64,000 bases of DNA from Peptococcaceae bacterium BICA1-7. GTDB lineage: Bacteria > Bacillota > Desulfotomaculia > Desulfotomaculales > Desulfocucumaceae. Below the pieces are notes generated by a model. That model made no database searches. It saw only the letters and a program-made list of their open reading frames with translations, and was not told the origin of the DNA. The stretch covers positions 62,001 to 126,000 of the forward strand of contig JUEB01000020.1 in the NCBI GenBank assembly GCA_000802095.1, given 5' to 3'. The first letter of the stretch is position 1, and the number at the start of each line of letters is the position of its first letter. Below, piece after piece: positions 17,433 through 31,542 of the stretch. A program made the position numbers and the translations under genes.

Positions 17433-19340
17433 TTATATTTTCCTGGTCTTTATTTCATCCTTAATACGGGCAATAAACTCCTCCAGACCCATGGAGCCAA
17501 TGTCACCCGCCGAGCGATGGCGAACCGCCACCGCTCCGTTTTCGGCCTCACGGTCCCCTAGCACCAGCATATAGGGGATTTTCTGTCCCTGGGCCTCACG
17601 GATTTTATAGTTTACCTTTTCATTCCTGTCATCAAGCTCCACTCTAATGTCCTCAGCATCAAGCCTATCCATTACTTTTTGGGCATATTCCACGTGCCGG
17701 CCGGTGATAGGCAGCACCCTGGCCTGTACGGGGGCCAGCCACACCGGGAAGGCCCCGGCAAAGTGCTCGGTCAGTATACCTATAAATCTCTCCATGCTCC
17801 CGAAAACCGTGCGGTGAATCATAACCGGCCGGTGTTTCTGGCCGTCCTCCCCCACATAGGTTAGTTCAAACAACTCCGGCATCTGAAGGTCCAGCTGGAT
17901 GGTGCCGCACTGCCAGGTCCTCCCCAGGCAGTCCTCCAGGTGGAAGTCAATTTTGGGCCCGTAGAAAGCACCGTCCCCCTCGTTAACCTTGTATTCCATC
18001 CCCATAGTGTTGAGGGCGTCCTCCAGGGCCGAGGTGGCCATCTCCCAGATTTCGTCGGACCCCATGGCCTTTTCCGGCTTGGTGGAGAGCTCCACCTTGT
18101 ATTTAAACCCAAATACCTTGTAGATATAGTCCACCAGGTCTATTACACCCATTATCTCTTCCTTTATCTGGCCTGGCAGCATGTATATGTGGGCGTCATC
18201 CTGGGTAAAGCAGCGCACCCTCATAAGCCCGTGCAGCGCCCCTGAAAGCTCGTGCCTGTGAACAAGGCCAAGCTCGGCCATCCGTATGGGAAGGTCACGG
18301 TAGCTGTGCAGCCTGCTCTTGTATACCAGTATGCCTCCCGGACAGTTCATGGGCTTTACGGCATAGTCCAGTTCGTCTATTTTTGTAAAATACATGTTAT
18401 CCCTGTAGTGGTCCCAGTGCCCGGACCTTTCCCAAAGAGCCCGGTTAAGTATAATGGGGGTGCGAATTTCATGATAGCCCCTTTTGCGGTGCACCTCTTT
18501 CCAAAACTTTTCCAGCTCATTGCGGAGCACCATGCCCTTGGGGTGGAAGAAGGGAAATCCAGGCCCCTCCTCCTGTATGGTGAATAATTCAAGCTCGGCC
18601 CCCAGCCGGCGGTGATCCCTCTTTTTGGCCTCCTCTATCCTGGTCAGGTGCTCCTCCAGCAAACTCTTCTTGGGGAAAGAGGTTCCGTATACCCTCTGCA
18701 GCATCTTGTTCTTCTCACTGCCCCGCCAGTAGGCCCCGGCCAGGCTGGTCAGCTTGACCGACTTGAGCCTCCCGGTGGAAGGAACATGGGGGCCGGCGCA
18801 CAGGTCGGTGAAGTCCCCCTGCCGGTAGCAGGAAATGGCCGCGTCCACAGGCAGATCGTTGATCAGCTCAACCTTGTAGCTCTCACCTGCCCTGTCAAAA
18901 AACTCAAGTGAGCTTTCCCTTTCCATGTCCATCCTCTCAAAGGGAAGGTCAGCCTTTATAATGGCCTCCATCTCAGCCTCTATCTTCCCCAGCATCTCGG
19001 GGGTAAACTTTTCCGAAGCATCAAAATCATAATAGAAGCCGTCGGCAATAGCCGGACCAATAGCCAGTTTTGTCCCCGGGAAAAGTTTTTGGACCGCCTG
19101 GGCCAGTACGTGAGAGGTGCTGTGGCGGAAGGTCTGCCTGCCCTCTTCAGAATCAAAGGTATAAAACTCGACGGCAGCATCCTTTTTAATAGGTGTGGTA
19201 AGGTCTACCAGCTTTCCGTCCAGCCTCCCCACCAGAGCCTCTTTCCCCAGCCTCCCGCTAATGCTGGAGGCCACCTCGGCCAGGGTTACTCCCTCACTGT
19301 ACTCCCTTACGCTTCCATCCTTTAAAGTAACTTTTACCAC
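17433..19340 (-). CDS. thrS: Threonyl-tRNA synthetase
   Basis: Charges tRNA-Thr and edits Ser-tRNA-Thr. A longer frame exists upstream but overlaps the T-box terminator; the GTG 7 nt after AGGGGG gives a normal 635-aa enzyme starting MVKVTLKDGSVREYSEGVTL. Domains: TGS (residues 1-60), editing domain N2 (~65-230, HSTSHVLAQAVQ and GPAIADGFYYDF), class II catalytic core (~240-535, RGYHEIRTPIILNRALWERSGHW, GPKIDFHLEDCLGR, GSMERFIGIL), and anticodon-binding domain (~540-635). It follows DUF445 and ytxC, the Bacillus-like ytxC-thrS neighbourhood. It is regulated by the T-box leader. Confidence 0.97.
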   Translation of the reverse strand: MVKVTLKDGSVREYSEGVTLAEVASSISGRLGKEALVGRLDGKLVDLTTPIKKDAAVEFYTFDSEEGRQTFRHSTSHVLAQAVQKLFPGTKLAIGPAIADGFYYDFDASEKFTPEMLGKIEAEMEAIIKADLPFERMDMERESSLEFFDRAGESYKVELINDLPVDAAISCYRQGDFTDLCAGPHVPSTGRLKSVKLTSLAGAYWRGSEKNKMLQRVYGTSFPKKSLLEEHLTRIEEAKKRDHRRLGAELELFTIQEEGPGFPFFHPKGMVLRNELEKFWKEVHRKRGYHEIRTPIILNRALWERSGHWDHYRDNMYFTKIDELDYAVKPMNCPGGILVYKSRLHSYRDLPIRMAELGLVHRHELSGALHGLMRVRCFTQDDAHIYMLPGQIKEEIMGVIDLVDYIYKVFGFKYKVELSTKPEKAMGSDEIWEMATSALEDALNTMGMEYKVNEGDGAFYGPKIDFHLEDCLGRTWQCGTIQLDLQMPELFELTYVGEDGQKHRPVMIHRTVFGSMERFIGILTEHFAGAFPVWLAPVQARVLPITGRHVEYAQKVMDRLDAEDIRVELDDRNEKVNYKIREAQGQKIPYMLVLGDREAENGAVAVRHRSAGDIGSMGLEEFIARIKDEIKTRKI

Positions 19341-19369
19341 TGTATTTCCCCCTTTGATATAAAAAGCAT

Positions 19370-19625
19370 AAAAAACAGCAGGCCCGCCCCTGCAGAAAAT
19401 ATTTAATATCCTCCGCTGGGACGGGCTTATTAACCCGCGGTTCCACCCGGCTTGAGCCACTTAAGGGCTCCTCTTTAAGTGCGGCTAACGCCCGCCTCAC
19501 GGCCTGCCTTAAGGTTACAAACCTTTCCGGCGGCGGCTCCCGGGTGGTCTTCGGCTTACTGTCCGGGGAGCGCGCTTACAGCCTTAAGACGCACTCTCTC
19601 TGTCACGGATGAAGGGCCTACTCTC
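19370..19625 (-). promoter_or_regulatory. T-box leader of thrS (Thr specifier ACC)
   Basis: On the minus strand the T-box GGGTGGAACCGCGG is at 19435-19448. It is followed by a terminator stem GCCCGTCCC / GGGGCGGGC (19382-19426) and a T-run. In stem I, GAAGACCACC carries ACC (19548-19546) followed by A, a Thr codon at the specifier position. This matches the downstream gene. The terminator overlaps the start of a spurious longer thrS frame. Confidence 0.93.
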
Positions 19626-19658
19626 CCGTTCATGGCTATTTAATATCGATCTTTGTTG

Positions 19659-29042: not shown

Positions 29043-29561
29043 CTACTTGTTAAAAACCAGTACTCTGCCCTCTTCCCTGAAGGCGAACAGCTTCTTGTCA
29101 TCGGCAGAGCCCCTGACGCTCTCCAGCATATGCTCAATAATCTCTTCCTGCATGAGAAGGTCCTCCTCGTAAAGGGAGTGGCCTTCATCAGTGATGAGGC
29201 TGTTTTCCAGGGACTGCCTGAACAGCTCCACGATAAGTGCTATTTCCTCCTGCTTTAGAGTCTCAACATCTCTTTGTATCTCAACCATGGTAAAGCTCTC
29301 GCACTCCTGGTAATCAACAGCAGAGAGCCTTATGACCTTTCCCTGGAGGACGCTGAATACCTCTATGCTCTCTAAAAGCCTGTCGTTTATAATGTCCCTA
29401 TCCGCAGGCTCAAGTGACCGTGAGGTGATGAAGGTAAATTTTAATACTCTCTGCCCCGGGTCATAATTAATGGTGGCCACTTCCGGGTACCGGACCAGAA
29501 TTGATATTAAAAGGCCAATGCTATCGGTAACATCCTCTTTTCCCCTGTACAATAATCCCAC
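29043..29561 (-). CDS. Conserved hypothetical protein between rny and ymdB
   Basis: A 172-aa soluble protein starting at GTG 8 nt after AAGGAG. I recognise no named domain. The N-terminal part (DSIGLLISILVRYPEVATIN, VLKFTFITSR) looks like alternating strands and helices; the C-terminal half is acidic and helical (EEIALIVELFRQSLENSLI, EEDLLMQEEIIEHMLESV). No Cys motif or membrane segment is seen. Its place 15 bp before ymdB and after rny, all on one strand, suggests a role around RNase Y or YmdB. Confidence 0.75.
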   Translation of the reverse strand: MGLLYRGKEDVTDSIGLLISILVRYPEVATINYDPGQRVLKFTFITSRSLEPADRDIINDRLLESIEVFSVLQGKVIRLSAVDYQECESFTMVEIQRDVETLKQEEIALIVELFRQSLENSLITDEGHSLYEEDLLMQEEIIEHMLESVRGSADDKKLFAFREEGRVLVFNK

Positions 29562-29716: not shown

Positions 29717-31258
29717 TTACTTTGCGTAATCCACCACTCTGGTTTCTCTGATAACTGTAACCTTTATCTGCCCTGGATAGTCAAGCTCCCCTTCTATTCT
29801 CTTGGCTATTTCCCGCACCAGCCTTATGGCCGCCAGGTCGTCTACCCGCTCAGGCTTGACCATTATCCGTATTTCACGTCCCGCCTGAATGGCGTAGGAT
29901 TTTTCCACTCCTTCGAAGGTGCCGGCTATTTCTTCCAGCTTTTGCAGCCTTCTGATGTAATTCTCCAGTGTTTCACGGCGGGCCCCCGGCCTGGCCGCCG
30001 ATATAGCGTCGGCCGCCTGCACCAGCACCGCCACAATTGTTTTGGGTTCCTCGTCTCCATGGTGGGCGGCTATGGCATGAGTTACATCAGCATTCTCACG
30101 GTACTTTTTGGCCAGATCCACACCAATGGTAACGTGGGGTCCTTCCACCTCATGATCAACGGCCTTTCCTATATCATGGAGCAGCCCGGCCCTCTTGGCC
30201 AGCTGCACATCAGCCCCCAGTTCCGCAGCCATCAGTCCGGCCAGGTGAGAAACCTCGATAGAGTGCTTAAGCACATTCTGCCCGTAGCTTGTCCTGTATT
30301 TCAGCCTCCCCAGCAGGTGTACCAGCTCGGGGTGCAGGCCGTGCACCCCTGTTTCAAAGGTGGCTTGCTCTCCGGCCTCTCTTATCTGGACATCCACCTC
30401 TTTTTTGGCCTTTTCAACCATTTCCTCAATCCGGGCAGGGTGTATCCTTCCGTCCACTATGAGCTTTTCAAGGCTTATCCGGGCCACTTCCCGGCGGATG
30501 GGATCGAAGCCGGACAGTATCACGGCCTCGGGTGTGTCATCAATAATCAGGTCAATCCCGGTAAGGGTCTCAAAAGCCCTTATATTCCGGCCCTCCCGGC
30601 CTATTATGCGGCCCTTCATCTCGTCACTGGGAAGGGGAATTACCGCCACCGTAGTCTCGGCCACATGGTCGGCAGCACACCTCTGGATAGCCAGGGATAT
30701 TACCTCCCTCGCCCTCTTTTCCCCTTCCTCCTTGGCCTTATCCTCGATGTCCTTGATCATCTTGGCGGCCTCATACTGGATTTCCTTTTCAATGTCGGCC
30801 AGCAATATCTGCCTGGCCTCTTCGGAGGTCATTCCCGAAACCCTCTCCAGCTCAGCCACCTGCTTGCTGTATAACTGGTTCAGGTCGTTTTTAATCTTGT
30901 CTGCCTCGGCTTCTTTTTTATTCAGCAAATCTTCTTTTTTCTCAATGGCATCTGTTTTACGATCCAGAGCCTCTTCCTTCTGCATCAGGCGGCGCTCCAT
31001 CCGCTGGAGCTCGGAACGTCTTTCCTTATTTTCTCTCTCCACCTCGTTGCGAAGCTTTAAAACCTCTTCCTTGGCTTCCAAAAGAGATTCTCTTTTCTTT
31101 GCTTCAGCTGCCTTTTCCGCCTCATCCAGCAATCTCTTGGCCTGAACTTCGGCTGAGGCTATCTTGGCCTCGGCAAGTGATTTTCTGACCAAATACCCTA
31201 TGGCAAAAGATATAATTATTGCCAATATAGTAATAATAACAAAATAAATTGTTTGCAC
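29717..31258 (-). CDS. rny: Ribonuclease Y
   Basis: Membrane-bound endoribonuclease that starts mRNA decay in Firmicutes. The start is GTG after GGGAGGTGGATCA, giving 513 aa, the usual size. Residues ~5-25 are a membrane helix ([20 protein letters not shown]), followed by a long coiled coil (~30-200), a KH domain ([20 protein letters not shown], ~215-280) and an HD hydrolase domain with [15 protein letters not shown] near residue 360. The gene lies behind a structured leader with its own promoter and terminator near 31.3-31.5 kb, which suggests regulated read-through. Confidence 0.97.
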
Positions 31259-31309: not shown

Positions 31310-31508
31310 AAAAAAAAGACCGAGTAAACTCGGCAGAAAATATATCGGACCTACTCAGTTTGTCTCCAATGGGTGATAACAGCCATACCTATTAGAGATC
31401 GACTCCAGCAAACAAGATCTCCCCGGCAAAGCAAGGCCGGGAAGTAAAATATTATGTTGAATATATCTTAATACTGAAGTAGCAGCATCCAATTCTATTT
31501 TCTCCCAC
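31310..31508 (-). ncRNA. Structured RNA of ~200 nt between recX and rny (riboswitch-like leader or 6S-like)
   Basis: Read on the minus strand from the promoter at 31514-31542, the RNA ends at the terminator CCGAG TTTA CTCGG plus eight T (31311-31333). The 5' end pairs with the 3' end in three consecutive blocks: GGGAGAAAATA with TATTTTCTGCC (one mismatch), ATTGGA with TCCGAT, and CTACTTCAGT with ACTGAGTAG (one bulge). Inside lie hairpins CCCGGC/GCCGGG (31424-31441 area) and GAGATC/GATCTC. The segment ACTGAGTA (31352-31359) can instead pair with TACTCGGT of the terminator, an antiterminator. This is the logic of a riboswitch; the size and end pairing also resemble 6S RNA. The class is not recognised. 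Confidence 0.65.
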
Positions 31509-31513
31509 GCTTT

Positions 31514-31542
31514 ATTGTACATATTTAAGTTATACCTGTCAA
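31514..31542 (-). promoter_or_regulatory. Sigma-A promoter of the rny leader
   Basis: On the minus strand perfect TTGACA, 17 nt, then TACAAT, directly after the recX stop codon. It separates rny and its leader from recA-recX. Confidence 0.88.

Follow-up and report, generated by a model that had tools for sequence, protein, structure and literature searches.

The RNase Y gene, rny, of Peptococcaceae bacterium BICA1-7 is preceded by a structured 5' leader that we interpret, with moderate confidence and from sequence comparison, as a cis-acting transcription attenuator of the rny mRNA belonging to a family that runs through the Bacillota. This attenuator leader probably serves feedback on the RNase Y level. 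In Bacillota most mRNA decay is initiated by RNase Y, whose level must match RNA synthesis. Five features are seen in the sequence: a promoter, a covarying closing stem, an rny-specific hairpin, the lack of a promoter after the hairpin, and the linkage to rny. In what follows, the window is the whole stretch of 64,000 nucleotides that was analyzed.

The rny locus and its promoter

The leader and its promoter sit between recX and rny on the minus strand. NCBIfam assigns the neighboring genes to RecA, RecX, and RNase Y, and rny itself (29717-31258, minus strand, GTG start), the gene to which the leader is linked, matches TIGR03319 (RNase_Y equivalog) at 788 bits. This upholds the identities, RecX followed by RNase Y, proposed in an earlier reading made from the sequence alone (the sequence-only reading). 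That reading also described a promoter after recX that starts an RNA of about 200 nt, and the sequence supports both. The promoter (31514-31542, minus strand) consists of TTGACA (31542-31537), 17 nt, and TACAAT (31519-31514), with 11 of 12 consensus matches, and in nearly all relatives the hexamers are the same, again 17 nt apart, with the RNA starting 6 nt further on. The RNA is predicted to start at 31507/31506, six bases past the -10 box, and to begin with (U)GGGAGAAAAUAGAAUUGG. An RNA terminating in the U-run at 31310 would be 197 nt long, with the terminator hairpin about 170 nt past the start; this leader RNA, which begins at GGGAG and includes the whole U-run, occupies 31310-31507 (minus strand).

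In the window rny starts 51 nt past the U-run with a good Shine-Dalgarno site and no promoter in the gap. The same gap measures 26-83 nt in 36 of 37 leaders of the order and 195 nt in the remaining one (L008), and no convincing promoter was found in it among these 37 leaders; it is often too short for one. A 45-codon open frame that begins with UUG and has GGGAG upstream lies inside the leader (31355-31492, minus strand). A leader peptide translated from a conserved UUG was considered and rejected, as the frame ranges from 0 to 46 codons and both its start codon and its length vary among relatives. On the other side of rny, a 172-aa ORF (29043-29561, minus strand) between rny and a ymdB-like gene has no NCBIfam match.

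Conservation of the leader at rny

BLASTN matches were obtained in 43 of the 60 genomes of the order that were searched, mostly as two blocks, one with the promoter and the 5' part of the RNA and one with the 3' part and the terminator. All 30 loci fetched from this search lie upstream of rny, and 37 leaders were extracted. A whole-genome search with a covariance model of the leader (R1), which is blind to genes, gave matches in 95 of 113 genomes of the order, with one copy per genome except for a second, weaker match in G061. Across the phylum R1 matched 42 of 398 genomes at E<=0.1. At all 59 loci inspected from the R1 searches the leader is directly upstream of rny, a count that covers these fetched loci rather than every R1 match. 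No paralogue of the leader was found in its own genome, where the second match has E=6.

Because recA, recX, and rny are often neighbors, breaks in synteny were examined. In Desulforamulus aeronauticus (L044) rny is away from recA and recX and the leader is still at rny. In family f6 (L019, L149-L151) a tRNA-Leu and a superoxide-dismutase-like gene are found upstream of rny and the leader is retained. The element is old, as it occurs throughout most of the order and upstream of rny also where recA and recX have been lost as neighbors.

A wider sample of 59 Bacillota rny loci, mostly one per family, was also inspected. A promoter with at least 10 of 12 consensus matches is present in 57 of them. 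The arrangement of promoter, terminator-like hairpin, and rny occurs in 44 of the 59 and in 34 of 37 leaders within the order, where shuffling leads one to expect 1.4 and 1.6 hairpins, respectively. The CCGAG-type hairpin described below was found in only 16 of 66 named non-relatives, and a leader of this type is missing from many rny genes of Clostridium.

Structure of the leader RNA

The leader folds with -66.3 kcal/mol compared with -46.3 +/- 4.2 kcal/mol for shuffled sequences (z -4.8; 0 of 200 as good). Its ends pair in a closing stem, P1, formed by a 5' strand (AGAAAAUAGAAUUGGAUGCUGC..., 31474-31503, minus strand) and a 3' strand (31335-31358, minus strand) that ends at the foot of the terminator hairpin and keeps a constant position relative to that hairpin across Bacillota. 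P1 is present in the minimum-energy folds of all 49 distinct relatives and coexists with the terminator in 43 of them; in a test of pairing potential against shuffles over these relatives it gives z -4.2 (96% at p<=0.05).

Because insertions defeat column-based folding, RNAalifold did not recover the closing stem from plain MAFFT alignments. An alignment-free duplex test was therefore used, in which the 5' 40 nt of each leader were set against the 3' strand of the same leader and, for comparison, against 3' strands from other species. In the order, own pairs reached -26.8 kcal/mol versus -19.6 kcal/mol for permuted pairs (0 of 10,000 permutations as good; z about -10.5), and for 33 leaders sampled across Bacillota the values were -24.6 and -17.1 kcal/mol (0 of 10,000; z -10.7). 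In all but about three of these 33 the 5' end pairs with a segment that ends 0-8 nt (usually 0-5) before the hairpin. When 49 distinct sequences were aligned to R1, 92% of the cells in the stem were paired, compared with at most 49% when the strands were slid, and 72 double-sided changes were counted versus 18.3 +/- 3.6 in shuffles, with 11 covarying pairs. This alignment is fitted to R1, which was built from 15 of the 49 sequences; the alignment-free test has no such bias, and relatedness among the sequences inflates both tests somewhat. With only 15 sequences, an earlier count had given a weak signal (6 double-sided cells versus 3.0), which became strong with 49. The pairing of the RNA ends noted in the sequence-only reading is found in the window fold, and the covariation that it suggested looking for among relatives is strong both in the order and across Bacillota.

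Only short blocks of the leader are conserved and the most conserved strand is base-paired. Leader lengths run from about 150 to more than 400 nt; the interior varies in length and sequence and the 5' end is nearly fixed. In three genomes of family f65 (L153, L154, and L156, 1501-1592) the interior is lost and a minimal leader of 92 nt is left, made up of just the closing stem and the hairpin, which are therefore taken as the core of the element. Large insertions within the closing stem are seen in the leaders of 360-410 nt (L008, L017, L026, and L028). In family f46 (L161, L163, and L165) the 5' end of the leader (GUAGGAAC..UUCUAC) could form its own hairpin, competing with the closing stem. 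Of the two perfect internal hairpins described from the sequence alone, the one at 31419-31444 (minus strand, CUUCCCGGCC..GCCGGGGAG) was confirmed in the window, and its sequence is not conserved among relatives. An AU-rich block lies at about nt 40-50 of the RNA (31457-31470, minus strand). The strict AUAUAKAU-type motif was found in 31 of 37 relatives versus 8.8 expected, with the variant GAUAUAUUC in the window, and a G-A step is included in the block in 11 relatives versus 2.3 expected.

The conserved hairpin and the U-run

The window terminator consists of the hairpin GCCGAGUUUACUCGGU (GCCGAG-UUUA-CUCGGU, 31319-31334, minus strand) followed by a U8 tract (31310-31317, minus strand), which completes an intrinsic terminator, as the sequence-only reading had proposed for the end of this RNA. 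The core pairs of the hairpin are invariant or nearly so in 49 relatives, and the 3' block of the 37 leaders in the order takes the form AGUAGUACCGAUUCUUUUUCU-RCCGAGNNNNCUCGGU-U6-8. A genome-wide search in 60 genomes for the hairpin with its tail returned 46 occurrences, at least 42 of which coincide by coordinates with the rny leader; of the remaining four, three are away from the rny leader (G030:C1:174520, G043:C10:72706, and G043:C28:5157) and the fourth is in G051. The CCGAG-N-CUCGG hairpin is not generic terminator sequence. In the Bacillota sample, CCGRG-N-CYCGG lies 40-200 nt before rny at 35 of 59 loci compared with 0.2 expected.

A good U-run is present in almost every copy of the leader in the order of the window, and other lineages have a different hairpin in place of the CCGAG one with the U-rich tail retained. 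Leaders of the Sporomusa/Selenomonadales type (L045, L046, L048-L051, L055, L056, L077, and L108) have GCCGAG-N-CUCGGC followed by a nearly fixed CUUUACCC and no proper U-run. As the hairpin is kept there without the U-run, its conserved role may not be termination, and the conservation of its sequence suggests recognition by some factor.

Alternative folds and known RNA classes

The sequence-only reading had further proposed two mutually exclusive folds, in which part of the closing stem, ACUGAGUA, would instead pair with UACUCGGU of the terminator. This pairing does exist in the window (11 bp including G-U pairs), but it is restricted to the window species and its nearest relative (L001/L002), and adopting it costs 14.9 kcal/mol relative to the best fold, in which the closing stem and the terminator coexist. 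The antiterminator switch was rejected on these grounds. When relatives were searched for it, as had been suggested, no conserved antiterminator was found among 49 distinct sequences; the 3' terminator arm has scarcely more potential for such pairing than shuffled sequence (mean z -0.28; 8% at p<=0.05), and the 5' arm pairs with the leader no better than shuffles do. The 5' GG of the RNA can pair with the CC of the hairpin 5' arm before the 3' arm is made, and in lineages with a GGU or GGC 5' end the third base can also pair with the linker base. This is suggestive only, as one possible remaining competition.

The comparison with all Rfam models, also suggested at the outset, matched no family: the leader region gave nothing but noise at E<=10, and the leaders of 20 relatives gave nothing relevant, with no 6S RNA at E<=3. 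The alternative that this RNA is a 6S RNA was dropped, since no RF00013 match was obtained at E<=10 and a canonical 6S RNA is found on another contig of the genome (G000:C17, 79.2 bits). A T-box identity was likewise rejected, as the leader has no RF00230 match. The sole Rfam match in the window lies at 19414-19642 (minus strand) and is a T-box leader (RF00230, 94.6 bits) preceding a threonyl-tRNA synthetase-like gene (17433-19460); the start listed for this ORF runs into the T-box and was probably placed too far upstream. What remains of the riboswitch-like reading is a structured, independently promoted rny leader with a terminator; the specific switch does not stand, and no conserved structured aptamer core was found in the variable interior, which the f65 genomes lack. 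The leader has some features of an attenuator, namely a promoter upstream, a terminator-like hairpin before the gene with no promoter after it, and a covarying leader structure. No published description of it was found in the literature searched. On strong computational support, the rny leader is an uncatalogued new RNA family of a known general kind, the cis-acting leader.

A model for the control of rny

In the proposed mechanism, transcription of the rny leader would start at the single strong promoter. The first ~30 nt would then base-pair with the stretch immediately preceding the hairpin, which would close off the variable interior and bring the hairpin to the foot of the closing stem. 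The majority of transcripts would stop at the hairpin and U-run, giving a leader RNA of ~197 nt, and rny would be made only from polymerases that read through the hairpin. Since rny would be transcribed from the leader promoter and polymerase must pass the hairpin, the leader would act as a gate. This supposes that the hairpin would terminate in vivo and that read-through, or the stability of the leader, may be adjustable.

The leading candidates for the signal are RNase Y activity itself and RNA polymerase, so that decay capacity would track RNA synthesis. A tentative extension, which we consider doubtful, is that the folded leader or the hairpin may be read by RNA polymerase or RNase Y and that read-through might report the balance of transcription and decay throughout the phylum. 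Both are candidate readers by analogy. For RNA polymerase, the hint is that rny mRNA is ~64-fold enriched on it in B. subtilis, an observation left unexplained there (PMC11077062). For RNase Y, the analogies are its self-control through the rny leader in B. subtilis, its cleavage preference, and the clostridial stem-loops that can both direct cleavage and terminate. B. subtilis RNase Y has a weak preference for G-A steps in RNA that is AU-rich and unstructured and has structure downstream of the cut (PMC11780869). The AU-rich block of the leader resembles this preference and is a candidate RNase Y cleavage region.

Alternative explanations

The strongest competing explanation, which we consider unlikely, is that control is post-transcriptional. 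The stem-loop would recruit RNase Y or a cofactor and a nearby cut would expose the rny mRNA to RNase J, with the closing stem shielding the 5' end and the U-run being part of the cleavage signal or a side effect. In B. subtilis, RNase Y lowers its own expression through cuts in the rny 5' UTR, most of them within the first 50 nt (PMC10303841); cutting by a clostridium endonuclease depends on stem-loops, of which a U-rich one also terminates (PMC10311766); and E. coli RNase E, as cited in PMC10303841, uses a stem-loop in its own leader. The leaders that keep the hairpin sequence where the tail is no terminator fit this explanation as well. It accounts poorly for the good U-run in almost every copy in the order and for the U-rich tail behind substitute hairpins, which points to termination.

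It is improbable that the leader is the gene of a trans-acting small RNA, 6S-like or base-pairing, that lies before rny by chance and leaves rny with leak-through only. Such a gene would have its own promoter and terminator, paired ends, a length of ~200 nt, and nearly always one copy per genome, as is observed, but at every locus checked, including rearranged ones, the element is still at rny. It is not 6S RNA, its most conserved strand is base-paired, and its interior varies and has disappeared from one lineage.

A small-molecule riboswitch in line with the sequence-only reading, in which the closing stem would be the aptamer stem and ACUGAGUA:UACUCGGU the antiterminator, is very improbable. 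Many riboswitches have a terminator directly behind the closing stem and the pairing is present in the window, but the antiterminator is unconserved, there is no conserved aptamer core, and leaders of ~150 to >400 nt, with the interior absent in L153/L154/L156, do not fit. Intergenic terminators are common, but that this is an ordinary recA-recX operon terminator beside an ordinary rny promoter is hardly credible, as the promoter precedes the terminator, the two ends of the RNA covary as parts of a single structure, and hardly any copy of the hairpin sequence lies away from rny.

Comparison with known systems

Like the leader described here, the rny 5' UTR of B. subtilis (164 nt) has a sigma-A promoter directly upstream and is the site of control of RNase Y, in that case autoregulation by RNase Y (PMC10303841). 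The region mostly cut there, the first 50 nt, contains AU-rich stretches in the present leader. However, the B. subtilis account mentions neither a terminator nor a closing stem nor a CCGAG hairpin, and control there is by cleavage and RNase J1 (PMC10303841). In E. coli the main decay endonuclease likewise has a stem-loop in its leader, the rne 5' UTR (Rfam rne5; Schuck et al. 2009, cited in PMC10303841); the account given there has RNase E binding to this stem-loop and mentions no attenuator, and the present leader has no Rfam match. Terminator-type attenuators of Bacillota such as the T-box and the L20 leader share the order of promoter, folded leader, terminator, and gene. The rny leader differs from them in that no conserved antiterminator and no Rfam match were found, and the sequence conservation of the terminator hairpin itself is unusual. 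6S RNA (RF00013) is similar in length (~200 nt) and in its paired ends; unlike it, the leader has no covariance-model match and is linked to rny, and the true 6S RNA is elsewhere in the genome.

The rny leader adds an RNA family that is missing from Rfam. As it is found at the same gene across Bacillota and in no RNA catalogue, it is probably an unrecognized control element that sets the amount of the decay enzyme. The leader would offer a concrete and testable way into the question of how anaerobic Bacillota set the level of their main decay enzyme.
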